DNA from: Sphingomonas sp. A2-49
GTDB taxonomy: Bacteria > Pseudomonadota > Alphaproteobacteria > Sphingomonadales > Sphingomonadaceae
Direction: 5' to 3'
NCBI RefSeq assembly: GCF_025548555.1
Contig: NZ_JAJLPA010000016.1
Location: forward strand, 1-64,000
DNA length: 64,000 nucleotides
In this document: in pieces, positions 15,602 through 21,186 of the stretch
Layout: the number at the start of each line of letters is the position of its first letter
How positions within the stretch are numbered: the first letter of the stretch is position 1
Notes under the pieces: model-generated
The model's database searches: none
Told to the model about the DNA's origin: nothing
What the model saw: the letters and a program-made list of their open reading frames with translations, nothing else
Program-made: the position numbers and the translations under genes

Positions 15602-15731
15602 GCGCGTCTGGCTAGCCGAGGTTGGCCGCGACGGGGAGGGGGATCGTCGGGCCTTGCCCCCGCGCGCCGGAAAGGCCGGGCGCTTGCCAGTGGTTAGCGA
15701 ATGTGAAAGCAAGATCCGCTAGCGGGGGGCC

Positions 15732-16154
15732 ATGAGCGACGAGACGCCTATCGAGGGCAACGATCCGACGGAGGGGGCGGCGGCGCCCCTGGCCGACCGC
15801 CGCCGCGTGCTGATGCTGGGCGCGATCACCGCGGGCGCGGTGGTGTCGATCCGGCCGGCGCTCGGCCAGACGGCGGGGTCGGTATTGACCTGCGAGATCC
15901 CGGTTCCCGACATGAGCCGAGCGGGCAGCTTCATCGATCCGACCGGGGCCGTCGTCCCTGCCGGGACCAAGGGCGCGTTCCCGCCCGCGCCCCGCCCGTT
16001 CAAGGGCGAGGAGGTGCGCCGCGCGCTCGCCGGCACGCAACTGCCCGGCACCAGCTACGAAAGCAACCGCGCCTATATCGGCTATATCCGCCGGCTCCAG
16101 CGCGGGCAGGGCGGCTTCACCTGTTTCGCCTCGTTGCAGATGCCGCGCGGCTGA
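15732..16154 (+). CDS. Secreted protein heading the HPr-rel-A cassette
   Basis: 140-aa protein of unknown function. An Arg-rich n-region (DRRRVLML, residues 22-29) precedes a hydrophobic stretch and an ALGQ cleavage site near residue 46, so export is likely, possibly by the Tat route. The mature part has two cysteines (C54, C131), a Pro-rich middle and a C-terminal block AYIGYIRRLQRGQGGF ending CFASLQMPRG. It is three bases upstream of the PqqD-like gene, in one unit with the kinase and nucleotidyltransferase genes. I infer it could be the substrate of that machinery; there is no direct evidence. Confidence 0.75.
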   Translation: MSDETPIEGNDPTEGAAAPLADRRRVLMLGAITAGAVVSIRPALGQTAGSVLTCEIPVPDMSRAGSFIDPTGAVVPAGTKGAFPPAPRPFKGEEVRRALAGTQLPGTSYESNRAYIGYIRRLQRGQGGFTCFASLQMPRG

Positions 16155-16157
16155 CCG

Positions 16158-16424
16158 TTGCGATACCGCGCCCCGCCACCCGAGGCGTTGCTGACCGCCG
16201 ACCTCGACGCGTTCACCGCCGTCTTCCATCGCCCGTCCGGGATCACCCACCTGCTCGCCAGCCCGGCGCCGGAGATCCTGGCGGTGCTGGGCGACGCCTC
16301 GCTCGACCTCGACGACCTGCTGGCGCGACTGGCCGGACGCTTCGCGCTCGCCGACGCGGATCGCGACGCGCTCGCCGCCCGGCTCGACGAATTGCGCGAG
16401 GCGGGGCTGGTCGAGGCGACATGA
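16158..16424 (+). CDS. PqqD-like peptide chaperone (HPr-rel-A system)
   Basis: 88-aa small protein resembling the PqqD fold used as a RiPP recognition element. An N-terminal beta region (FHRPSGITHLL, about residues 23-33) is followed by LDDLLARLAGRFAL and a last helix ARLDELREAGLVE. It fits the NCBI family described as HPr-rel-A system PqqD family peptide chaperone. The start is a TTG at 16158, since no ATG or GTG fits. It overlaps the kinase gene by an ATGA. PqqD proteins usually bind a leader peptide and present it to a modifying enzyme. Confidence 0.8.
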   Translation: MRYRAPPPEALLTADLDAFTAVFHRPSGITHLLASPAPEILAVLGDASLDLDDLLARLAGRFALADADRDALAARLDELREAGLVEAT

Positions 16425-17275
16425 GGCACAGCTTCACCGTGCGGATCGGCCCGATCGGCTTCCGGATCGGCAGCGACTGGCGCGCGCCGGTCGAGCAGCT
16501 GCGCGAGTTGTACCGCTTCTACCCGTCGCCGAACCTGCCCGATTTCACCGTGCGGCTGGAGGCGGGGCGGCCGTGGCGGCGCTGGATCCGCCCGTCGATC
16601 TGCATCGGCGGCGACCATATGCTGCCCGAGGCCGCGCCGTTGCCGCTGGCGCAGGGGCTGCTCGCCGCCGAAATGGCGATGAACCTGCAACTGGCGCTCG
16701 GCGGGCGACGGTTCCTGCTGCTCCACGCCTCCTGCGTCGAGCGCGACGGGCGCGCGGTGCTGATGACCGGCGAATCGGGCGCGGGCAAGTCGACGCTGGC
16801 GGTGCTGCTCGCCGCGCGCGGATGGCGGTTCATGGGCGACGAATTCGCCCTGATCGATCCCGACACCGGCCTCGTCCACGCCTTTCCCCGCCTCGTCAGT
16901 CTCAAGAACGAGGGCATCGCCGCCGCGCACGCGGCGCGCCCGGACGCGCAGCTCGGGCCGCTGCTGACGGGCACGCCCAAGGGCACCATCCGCCACATGG
17001 TCCCCGACGGACTCGCGGTCGGCGCCATGGACGAGCCCGCCCGGCCCGCGCTGCTGCTGTTCCCCCGCTTCGGTGCGGCGGCGGACGTGCGTGCGGTCCG
17101 GCCGAGCGAAGCCTTCGTGCGGCTGACGCAGGCGTCGACCAATTACGTCGCGCTGGGCGAGGCGGGGTTCGGCGCGCTCACCCGCCTGGTCCGCGACGTG
17201 CCCGCGCGTGCGATCGATTATCCCGACGGCGCGGCGGCGGTGGCGCAGGTGGAGGCGGCGTGGCGGACGCTCTGA
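16421..17275 (+). CDS. HprK-related kinase A
   Basis: 284-aa protein related to HPr kinase/phosphorylase. It has the P-loop GESGAGKST (residues 117-125) preceded by an LHASCVERDG strand as in HprK, and a Walker B-like MGDEFALID near 138-146. It lacks the N-terminal HprK domain and no HPr gene is nearby, so the target is unlikely to be HPr. HprK-like kinases in lasso-peptide clusters phosphorylate the peptide C-terminus, which suggests a peptide target here. It overlaps both neighbours (4 and 16 bases), indicating strict co-expression. Confidence 0.85.
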   Translation: MRHSFTVRIGPIGFRIGSDWRAPVEQLRELYRFYPSPNLPDFTVRLEAGRPWRRWIRPSICIGGDHMLPEAAPLPLAQGLLAAEMAMNLQLALGGRRFLLLHASCVERDGRAVLMTGESGAGKSTLAVLLAARGWRFMGDEFALIDPDTGLVHAFPRLVSLKNEGIAAAHAARPDAQLGPLLTGTPKGTIRHMVPDGLAVGAMDEPARPALLLFPRFGAAADVRAVRPSEAFVRLTQASTNYVALGEAGFGALTRLVRDVPARAIDYPDGAAAVAQVEAAWRTL

Positions 17276-18291
17276 CCCTCGCCCGCGCGCTGGCCGACCC
17301 GCAGTCGCTGACGCTCGACACCGACTGGATCGGCCTCGTCACCACCGCGCGCGCCGAACGGCTGCTGGGCACGCTGGCGTATCGGCTCGATGGGCTGCCG
17401 TTGCCCGAGGACGTCGCGCTGTTGCTCGCCGACGCGCGCGACGCGGCGGAAAACGGGCGCCGCGCCGCGCTGTGGGAGGCGGAGATGGCGCGGCGCGCGC
17501 TGGCGCCGATCGGCTGTCCGGTGGTGCTGCTGAAGGGCACCGCGTTCGTCGCCGCCGGCCTGTCGGCGGGGCGGGGCCGGTCGATCGGCGACCTCGACAT
17601 CCTCGTGCCGCACGCCGCGCTCGCCGCGGTCGAGGCGGCGCTGCTGGGCGCGGGCTGGGAATGGGTCAAGCCCGATCCCTATGACGATGCCTATTACCGC
17701 CGCTGGATGCATGAACTGCCGCCGCTGATCCACCGCACGCGCGACCGGATGATCGACGTCCACCACACCATCCTGCCGCTGACCGCGCGGGTCACGCCGG
17801 ATGCGGCGGCGTTGCTCGCCGGCGCGGTGCCGCTCGGCAACGGCTTGTCGGTGCTGTCGCCCGAGGCGATGGTGGTCCATGCCGCCGCGCACCTGTTCGC
17901 CGACGGCGACCTGTCGGGTGGCTTGCGCAACCTGTGGGACATCCACTGCCTGCTCTGCGAGGGCGCCGAGGACGATCCCGATGTCGCGCTGGCGGTAGTC
18001 GACGAGGCCGCGCGGCACGGCCTGTCGGCGGCGGTGGCGCGCGCGCTGCGGCTGACGCACCGGATCTTCGGTACGCCTGTGACGCAAGCCGACCGGCCGG
18101 CGCGGGTCGGCGTGGCGCCGGCGCCGCTCGATGCCCTCTACCGCCGCCGCCTGCTCGCCCGCGACGACTGGGGGCGGCCGACCCGGCCGGTGACGCGGTT
18201 CGCCTTCTACGTCCGCTCGCACTGGCTGCGCATGCCGCCGGCCATGCTGGCGCGGCATCTGTGGACCAAGTGGCGCGCGCGCGGACGGTAG
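17260..18291 (+). CDS. Nucleotidyltransferase family protein (PF14907-like)
   Basis: 343-aa protein with the PF14907 nucleotidyltransferase hallmarks: VVLLKGTAF (about residues 84-92) and GRSIGDLDIL (about 103-112), which carries the metal-binding DxD. It continues with a YRRWMHELPP region, MIDVHHTI and HAAAHLF. The start is the GTG at 17260, inside the kinase gene; the frame stays open upstream but only as a shadow of the kinase. Same-family enzymes accompany HprK-like kinases in some lasso-peptide clusters. Substrate unknown. Confidence 0.82.
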   Translation: MADALTLARALADPQSLTLDTDWIGLVTTARAERLLGTLAYRLDGLPLPEDVALLLADARDAAENGRRAALWEAEMARRALAPIGCPVVLLKGTAFVAAGLSAGRGRSIGDLDILVPHAALAAVEAALLGAGWEWVKPDPYDDAYYRRWMHELPPLIHRTRDRMIDVHHTILPLTARVTPDAAALLAGAVPLGNGLSVLSPEAMVVHAAAHLFADGDLSGGLRNLWDIHCLLCEGAEDDPDVALAVVDEAARHGLSAAVARALRLTHRIFGTPVTQADRPARVGVAPAPLDALYRRRLLARDDWGRPTRPVTRFAFYVRSHWLRMPPAMLARHLWTKWRARGR

Positions 18292-20437: not shown

Positions 20438-20809
20438 ATGCGCACGCTGATCGACTTGCCCGAGGACGATATGAAATGGCTCGATCGCCGGGCGGCCGAG
20501 CAAGGCAAGTCGCGCGCCGCCTTGGTGCGCGAGGCGGTGTCGCAATACCGGGCGGAAGCGCCTGCTGCGGGGCCTCTGGATTGGCTCGAAAAGGGGTTCG
20601 GCCTTTGGGCGCGTCATGGCATCGTCATCGACCCCGCCGAATACGACCGACGCCGACGTGCCGAGTGGACCCGTCCTTGGGACGACGATTACGAGGAGGT
20701 GCGCGCCGAATCGCCCGACTGTTTCACGCCGGAGGACGATAGGGAACGCGCGCATTATCTCGCCTTGATGGCGAAGTCTGCCGTCAGGACGCCCGCGTCG
20801 GACGCATGA
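20438..20809 (+). CDS. vapB: Ribbon-helix-helix antitoxin of a VapBC pair
   Basis: 123-aa protein whose N-terminal 40 residues read as a ribbon-helix-helix DNA-binding domain (MRTLIDLPEDDMKWLDRRAA, then SRAALVREAV). The rest is a long acidic, Trp-rich tail (WTRPWDDDYEEV), probably the toxin-neutralising part. It is longer than the usual 70-90 aa VapB. The stop overlaps the toxin start by ATGA, the standard antitoxin-first layout. It should repress its own promoter through the paired GATATC sites. Confidence 0.82.
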   Translation: MRTLIDLPEDDMKWLDRRAAEQGKSRAALVREAVSQYRAEAPAAGPLDWLEKGFGLWARHGIVIDPAEYDRRRRAEWTRPWDDDYEEVRAESPDCFTPEDDRERAHYLALMAKSAVRTPASDA

Positions 20810-21186
20810 GCGGTTACAGCCTCGACGCCAATATTCTGATCGATGCGTTGCTGGGTCATGAGCCGGCGCATGTCGAATTGGCGCGCATCGGCGATACCGG
20901 TGAGGAATTGCGCATCAGTCGCATGGCGTGGATCGAAGTGCTGTCGAAGGGAGGGGAGGGCGTCGTACGCGAGGCCCTCCAGTTTCTGGGACGGTTCGCC
21001 CTCGACGAGATCGACGAGGACATCGCGCTGCGGGCGGCGGCGCTGCGGCGTCAGCGGGCGGGGCTGAAGTCGCCCGACGCCGTCATCCTCGCCACTGCGC
21101 AGATGCGCGGCCGCATTCTCGTTACCCGCAATACCAGGGACTTCCCGGCGAACATGCCGGGCGTCCGCATCCCCTACACCCTCTGA
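20806..21186 (+). CDS. vapC: PIN-domain ribonuclease toxin VapC
   Basis: 126-aa PIN-domain protein. The four acidic residues expected at the metal centre are present: D7 (YSLDANI), E44 (AWIEVLS), D91 (SPDAVILATAQ) and D112 (NTRDFP), so it looks catalytically intact. VapC toxins cut RNA, often tRNA or 23S rRNA, when VapB is degraded. It ends 16 bases before glmS, so a transcript from glmU or vapBC would probably also serve glmS. Confidence 0.87.
   Translation: MSGYSLDANILIDALLGHEPAHVELARIGDTGEELRISRMAWIEVLSKGGEGVVREALQFLGRFALDEIDEDIALRAAALRRQRAGLKSPDAVILATAQMRGRILVTRNTRDFPANMPGVRIPYTL

Follow-up and report, generated by a model that had tools for sequence, protein, structure and literature searches.

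The closest described systems are those that tailor lasso peptides. According to the review PMC9266682, the kinase PadeK phosphorylates the C-terminal Ser of its lasso precursor, ThcoK and SyanK (SyanK from a Sphingobium) polyphosphorylate the C-terminal Ser of theirs, and a His-Lys-Asp-Asp set is required in the lasso kinases. The review also describes PsmN, an annotated nucleotidyltransferase without which the phosphorylated Ser does not receive its one or two hexoses, and leaves open whether PsmN itself is the glycosyltransferase (PMC9266682). The window analysed here, 64,000 nucleotides of Sphingomonas sp. A2-49 (contig NZ_JAJLPA010000016.1), holds a cassette of four genes, A, B, C and D, at positions 15732-18291, and this gene set is itself already known under a name, the HPr-rel-A system. 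We take the PF14907 nucleotidyltransferase to be part of that system. A search of open PMC papers, which does not extend to subscription papers or preprints, found no description of the cassette; the papers listed, going by title and opening of the abstract, deal with lasso peptides or with different topics.

The four genes, read as overlapping or adjoining open reading frames on the + strand, are the following:

15732-16154, + strand: gene A, the proposed substrate, an exported-type protein of 140 aa; ATG start; no Pfam or NCBIfam match
16158-16424, + strand: gene B, a protein of 88 aa with the PqqD/RRE fold (RRE, recognition element of ribosomally synthesized and post-translationally modified peptides, RiPPs), TIGR04353; TTG start; 61.2 bits for a cut-off of 35
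16421-17275, + strand: gene C, HprK-related kinase A, TIGR04352, 284 aa; 228.5 bits for a cut-off of 200
17260-18291, + strand: gene D, a PF14907 nucleotidyltransferase-fold protein of 343 aa; GTG start; 173.3 bits for a cut-off of 31.2

Because of this gene set, the co-occurrence of its members, the signal and tail of A, the predicted RRE fold of B and the lasso precedent, we lean towards the reading that the cassette modifies an exported protein post-translationally, following the tailoring logic of phosphorylated lasso peptides with no lasso made. An original prediction, drawn up from the DNA letters, had described a single unit with a 3-base gap between A and B, a 4-base overlap between B and C and a 16-base overlap between C and D, and this is exactly what the window contains, the B-C overlap reading ATGA; the families that it named for B, C and D also hold at the scores given above. 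B remains below the Pfam PqqD cut-off (14.9 versus 23.4 bits), its membership being claimed through TIGR04353 and its fold, and C is below that of Pfam Hpr_kinase_C (26.9 versus 33.3 bits). The cassette is placed between the pho/pst genes and pgp-glmU. At the matching locus of Sphingomonas parapaucimobilis the RefSeq labels read hypothetical protein, HPr-rel-A PqqD family chaperone, HprK-related kinase A and nucleotidyltransferase family protein, with pst genes on one side and HAD hydrolase, glmU and glmS genes on the other.

The order A-B-C-D on one strand recurs in all 80 named kinase loci (the best 80 of 200 from a contig search for kinase relatives), with A and B at most 250 bases apart in 78 of them; the exceptions are L083 (3.7 kb) and L109 (475 bases). 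Since the flanks of these 80 loci are conserved too (divergent phoR upstream in 74, convergent pgp downstream in 69, glmU present in 73), order alone proves little. The phoR and pgp counts would also suit an explanation in which the kinase and the PqqD-like protein are regulatory, A is simply co-transcribed and the gene order is synteny inherited from phoR to pgp-glmU. We regard this explanation as very unlikely in view of two observations: A accompanies the kinase even where the two are apart, and the A-B-C-D layout is found outside the class in other surroundings. As a side observation, in one genome (L083, L029 and L182) A lies about 3.7 kb from B, the insertion carrying a sigma-factor-like gene and a membrane-protein gene whose product looks like an anti-sigma factor.

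Co-occurrence was counted in 296 genomes of the order, 213 of them from the window's own family, with an A profile built from sphingomonad A proteins (threshold E 0.001); these counts, like the genome counts and distances given below for the phylum sample, exosortase, TIGR03088 and PF14907, were made by hand from coordinates. Over the whole order the kinase exceeds its cut-off in 126 genomes and the A profile matches 88. Within the family, all 70 genomes with a kinase over the cut-off have an A match, 67 of them at E below 1e-30 and three more weakly (G053, G262, G287), and among the 143 without such a kinase there is one A match, marginal and confined to the signal (G194, E 5e-4). In 13 of the 70 genomes A is not next to the kinase, being at least 87 kb away on the same contig in eight and on another contig of a draft assembly in five. 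Twelve of these 13 belong to one genus, in which the four A loci examined (L173, L175, L177, L179) have A beside phoR with B, C and D not matched there, and the matching kinase loci L174, L176 and L178 have B-C-D together beside pgp and glmU. In the thirteenth (G053, another genus) A and a B stand together beside phoR (L169) and C-D are on a different contig (L168), a split in which the proposed substrate stays beside the protein that would bind it. Such co-occurrence without linkage indicates more than synteny and supports a functional partnership. Taken together with the 80 named loci and the recurrence of the layout outside the class, these counts bear out the co-occurrence in other genomes on which the original prediction depended.

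The features of A that could make it a substrate lie at its two ends:

15798-15869, + strand: Arg-Arg (Tat-like) signal of A, residues 23-46, from the identity comparison; proposed leader recognised by B
15891-15893, + strand: Cys54 of A, invariant in the 31-protein alignment; probable disulfide partner of Cys131
16119-16136, + strand: C-terminal motif of A, T130-C131-F-A-S134-L, consensus [ST]-C-x-x-S-hydrophobic; candidate modification site S134 or T130

The Arg-Arg signal (RRRVLMLGAITAGAVVSIRPALGQ; motif RRRVLMLG) suggests that A is probably exported by twin-arginine translocation (Tat). Neither Pfam nor NCBIfam, the latter including the Tat-signal model TIGR01409, gave a match for A at E up to 1, and the label Tat-like is therefore taken from the motif itself. 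Alignment statistics used 82 of the 84 A matches (L085 was masked and L093 unparsed), 79 of which entered the signal comparison. Mean pairwise identity among these 79 sphingomonad proteins was 0.79 in the signal, 0.68 in the mature part and 0.22 in the n-region. In 58 shared loci the signal and mature values were 0.80 and 0.69 for A, versus 0.35 and 0.67 for the lipoprotein PstS. For a Tat-type control our first choice was NF003767, presumably MsrP, which had no match in 41 genomes; PhoX, used instead in 28 of the 29 loci of the genus, gave 0.63 and 0.66. The signal was at least as conserved as the mature part in 2776 of 3081 pairs for A versus 130 of 378 for PhoX. Thus the A signal is conserved above the mature part, unlike those of both exported control proteins.

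The predicted model of B (predicted local distance difference test, pLDDT, 94.9) fits the PqqD/RRE fold, with a three-stranded sheet and three helices. Its best solved matches are TbiB1 with the TbiA leader peptide (5v1v, E 3.2e-4) and a second lasso B1 with its leader (6jx3, E 1.4e-3), the PqqD structure 5sxy coming at rank 13 (E 0.06). From the fold and the conserved signal we consider it likely that B binds A. The lasso analogy put forward by the original prediction gains from this predicted fold, and also from the precedent, described in PMC9266682, of a kinase and a "nucleotidyltransferase" acting on a C-terminal Ser.

At the other end of A, the conserved C-terminus that the original prediction had only suspected proved to be real, and so did its two cysteines: C54, T130, C131, A133, S134 and Q136 are invariant across the 31 aligned A proteins, window included. 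Outside the family the gene 5' of B mostly encodes an Arg-Arg-signal protein again, with an unrelated mature sequence, and a Pfam and NCBIfam scan of ten divergent A proteins gave nothing above cut-off. We grouped the A proteins of 170 of the 185 kinase loci at 60% identity into 67 clusters. C-x-x-S-hydrophobic was present within the last 65 residues in 52 of the 67, compared with 3.3 expected when each mature sequence was shuffled; the automatic A calls of L135, L172 and L146 had been replaced by the frame ending in the motif, which favours the motif, and both L135 and L172 count among the 52. Of the 15 clusters scored as misses, three (L083, L085, L092) go back to A calls that are wrong or masked; without them the motif is present in 52 of 64 usable clusters. 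A motif-free count gave a Cys in the last 65 residues of 60 of these 64, and the last Cys of those 60 is followed by Ser at +3 in 49, preceded by Ser or Thr at -1 in 51 and followed by one of Ile, Phe, Leu and Val at +4 in 47. The motif Ser stands at a median of 7.5 residues from the C-terminus of A. The mature part holds an even number of Cys in 51 of the 52 motif-bearing clusters, which fits disulfides, a C54-C131 bond being probable in the window protein.

A conserved tail on a protein next to RiPP tailoring machinery (RRE, kinase and transferase) might also mean that A serves as a precursor from which a short C-terminal piece, once modified, is set free to act outside the cell as a peptide signal or an antimicrobial, and the very high conservation of the sphingomonad tail (identity 0.92 over the last 12 residues) would agree with this. 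We find it improbable, as no peptidase or transporter is present among the four genes, mature A is conserved along its whole length in the alignment of 31 and, with its even Cys number, looks like a folded domain, and the position between housekeeping genes is constant. Most antimicrobial clusters are unlike this constant placement.

Two groups of loci show how A varies. Motif-less variants outside Sphingomonadales (L115, L116, L130, L183, L186-L191) include several with an SPG-[YFW]-W-like stretch. In seven of these loci (L183, L186-L191) the B profile found no match on the cassette strand, and the motif-less A together with an unrecognised B indicates that a divergent subtype exists. In L153-L162 (family f5), several A proteins have long Asp-rich or Gly/Ser-rich insertions and keep the signal, the Cys and the tail motif, a pattern that would suit a protein able to accept a variable loop.

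The next element of the cassette is the kinase, whose conserved residues are as follows:

16724-16726, + strand: H102 of the kinase, invariant (185/185)
16769-16795, + strand: Walker A of the kinase, residues 117-125, GESGAGKST, K123 invariant (185/185)
16838-16843, + strand: D140-E141 of the kinase, invariant (185/185); the HPr kinase 2qmh has Asp-Asp here

The closest solved structures to C are HPr kinases (E 3e-4), and its H, GxxGKS and D correspond to theirs. H102, G122, K123, T125, D140, E141, K162, K187 and N241 never vary in the 185 kinases. By analogy with the lasso kinases, C would fairly probably phosphorylate A, with about an even chance that it does so on the tail.

As for the transferase, one feature stands out:

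17590-17598, + strand: D-x-D of D, residues 110 and 112 (17263 being residue 1), conserved in 161/161

We assume this D-x-D to be the active site, by analogy with nucleotidyltransferases. K91, G92, R106, D110, D112, D165 and H167 are invariant in the 161 D proteins; no solved relative of D was found by sequence at E up to 1, and D is the sole PF14907 match in the window's genome. In 168 of the 170 loci that hold both, D is at most 400 bases from the kinase on the same strand. Of the loci without D, four stop at most 140 bases past the kinase and the other eleven hold about 1.5 kb. When the genomes behind these loci were searched together with G317, 15 of the 16 had a PF14907 match, about 1.8-2.4 kb after the kinase in six (G331, G402, G406, G414, G424, G320), right beside it in two (G044, and G317, where it stands at the end of a contig), and farther off or on another contig in the remainder. 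The D gene is thus usual but not always adjacent. Its addition of a sugar or a nucleotide to A, suggested by the PsmN analogy, is a tentative proposal.

We then turn to the surroundings of the cassette beyond the order. The kinase exceeds its cut-off in other families of Sphingomonadales and in 61 of the 398 genomes of a phylum sample, 13 of them from the order; same-class genomes outside the order are absent from these matches. The TIGR03088 PEP-CTERM/XrtA glycosyltransferase lies at most 2 kb from the kinase in 24 of 47 genomes outside Sphingomonadales, and anywhere in the genome, at E 1e-60, in 42 of the 47 (49 kinase-bearing genomes less G334, below cut-off, and G463, fragmentary). In three scanned loci of this kind (G301, G386, G339), whose proteins were chosen by size (about 630 aa), the gene after D is the XrtA amidotransferase TIGR03108. 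Exosortase (PF09721) was found in 23 of the 34 genomes searched, and within 25 kb of the kinase in six (G577, G007, G554, G003, G054, G027), three other families of Sphingomonadales being included. In G027 the genes 5' of A are those for an XrtA ATPase, FemAB and exosortase, followed by one for a trypsin-like protease.

This polysaccharide context makes the strongest rival to protein modification a reading in which B, C and D produce an activated small molecule, a phosphorylated, nucleotide-linked sugar or carrier, for an envelope polysaccharide, and A, as a secreted protein with a structural or assembly role, uses the product without being modified in the cytoplasm. A kinase together with a nucleotidyltransferase would also suit sugar activation, and polysaccharide loci are a frequent setting of the cassette outside Sphingomonadales (TIGR03088 in 24/47, TIGR03108 in the three scanned, exosortase at most 25 kb away in 6/23). 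Even so we judge it unlikely: it leaves unexplained why the fold of B is nearest to leader-bound B1, why the A signal is conserved and why the tail motif is found on unrelated mature domains, and the window's genome has no exosortase match (PF09721, E 1e-5) and no TIGR03088 match (E 1e-60). The two ideas could also be combined, the cassette placing a phosphoglycosyl group on the tail Ser of A as an attachment point or primer for an extracellular polysaccharide, which we hold to be quite unlikely. If it were true, there would be a protein-anchored glycan made by lasso-tailoring enzymes, linked to exosortase A loci and kept in Sphingomonas without exosortase.

Three further variants were seen. 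In L180 and L181, from another genus, A and B are separated by an additional gene (about 390 aa) that, judging by its sequence, may encode a glycosyltransferase. A plasmid of Vibrio alfacsensis (L242) carries a plasmid-borne variant, with HprK-related kinase A, a nucleotidyltransferase and a hypothetical protein upstream, adjoining 2-aminoethylphosphonate genes. In L233 and L239 a D relative (E 5e-18 and 3e-15) comes after an HprK-like kinase, and no B was recognised there; these are possibly other kinase-transferase systems.

Returning to modification of the exported protein, the proposed course is as follows. A would be made in the cytoplasm with its Arg-Arg signal, and B, as an RRE/PqqD domain, would bind this signal as a leader and present A to C. 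C would then use a nucleotide as donor to phosphorylate a hydroxyl group in the [ST]-C-x-x-S tail, with Ser134 the most likely acceptor and Thr130 the alternative, and D would build on the phosphate with a hexose, as reported for PsmN, or with a nucleotide. Modified A would leave, probably by Tat, and fold with the C54-C131 disulfide. Since Tat carries folded proteins, export by this route allows modification to take place first in the cytoplasm.

Several points weigh against this proposal. In 12 clusters, all outside Sphingomonadales, the exported protein of the cassette lacks the C-x-x-S motif; the motif counts take related clusters as separate, and the Ser at +3 could be kept for structural reasons. 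In lasso precursors it is the last residue that the kinases modify, whereas A has its candidate Ser close to the C-terminus and not at it. The fourth residue of the lasso-kinase His-Lys-Asp-Asp set is not clear in C, for which Glu141 (185/185) and Asp146 (125/185) come into question. The excess of signal conservation in A over the Tat control is moderate, with two controls in all. The AlphaFold model of A has low confidence (pLDDT 65.2, predicted template modelling score 0.49), and a PDB fold search with it gave nothing better than E 1.8, so that the model was not used as evidence. D was not found in 15 of the 185 kinase loci. No A was counted in 15 of the 185 either, these being the loci left out of the clustering: A lies elsewhere for nine (L029, L182, L174, L176, L178, L180, L181, L005, L168; in L180-L182 farther upstream in the same locus), the contig end cuts A in L166, where its tail still bears the motif, and in five (L129, L131, L132, L138, L139) A was not found.

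Two side observations concern neighbouring DNA. In the phoR-A interval (15683-15709) a conserved block (CTTGCCAG...GTGAAAG) stands upstream of A, and the exact GTGAAAG with its flanks recurs 5' of A in 35 of 82 loci, which are related and not independent of one another; the block could be a promoter or the Pho box of the divergent phoR. In the glmU-glmS interval (20438-21186) a gene for a small ribbon-helix-helix-like protein overlaps one for a PIN-like protein, a pair that looks like a VapBC-type toxin-antitoxin.

Two other roles were considered and rejected. In a search for anti-phage defence the kinase had a single weak match, mad8 (E 9e-4, 16.8 bits), and A, B and D had none at E 0.01. Carbon regulation through HPr, already thought unlikely by the original prediction, is made improbable by the location of the true HPr genes (contigs C1 and C54) and of the genome's own HprK, which are on contigs other than that of the window (C8).

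Compared with HprK, C shares the kinase core seen in the solved HPr kinases (E 3e-4), but it scores 26.8 bits with TIGR00679 for a cut-off of 240 and has Glu for the second Asp. SynChlorMet resembles the cassette by family names, with an HprK-like kinase (ScmC) and a PqqD family protein (ScmD), but the window kinase reaches 32.2 bits for an ScmC cut-off of 125. Towards the HPr-rel-A system the likeness is direct: B and C exceed the TIGR04353 and TIGR04352 cut-offs, the gene order is as in RefSeq, and the adjacent PF14907 gene is present, overlapping the kinase gene by 16 bases. The difference is that the family names give no function and that A is outside all NCBIfam models.

With lasso tailoring (PadeK, ThcoK, SyanK and PsmK; PsmN; B1) the cassette has the same three protein kinds in common, PadeK, ThcoK and PsmN being likened to the window enzymes by kind and not by direct sequence comparison, and the fold of B is nearest to B1. 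The proposed substrate differs, being an exported protein that looks folded and bears an Arg-Arg signal. A search of the window's genome for a lasso cyclase found no match (NF033535, E 0.001), and no B2 leader peptidase is annotated at the matching RefSeq locus, no family search having been made for it. Kinases near lasso-like genes of related sphingomonads (L235, L237, and L238 at G194:C35) score 50-54 bits with TIGR04352, versus 30 for the genome's own HprK region, and four scanned sub-threshold kinases (L233, L235, L237, L239) score 48-56. Their lasso-like neighbours are all below lasso cut-offs: a cyclase-like protein at L238 (439.6 bits, cut-off 525), a lasso-type PqqD at L237 (65.7, cut-off 80) and a weak cyclase-like protein at L235 (109.6 bits).

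Finally, exosortase A (XrtA)/PEP-CTERM loci surround the cassette in roughly half of the other Pseudomonadota examined, whereas in the window's genome, without exosortase and TIGR03088 matches, it stands between pho/pst and pgp-glmU. If the proposed modification is true, many Proteobacteria use lasso tailoring enzymes on ordinary exported proteins, and exosortase-type polysaccharide loci are connected with the phospho- or glyco-modification of a protein tail. For a widespread, named and functionally blank gene set there is now a candidate substrate as well as a candidate residue. What goes beyond the original prediction is the C-x-x-S motif shared across lineages, the signal conservation, the exosortase and polysaccharide context and the motif-less variants. 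Relative to the open papers searched, what is new is the exported partner as a near-constant member of the HPr-rel-A gene set, its tail motif and conserved signal, the lasso-B1-like predicted fold of B and the link with polysaccharide loci.

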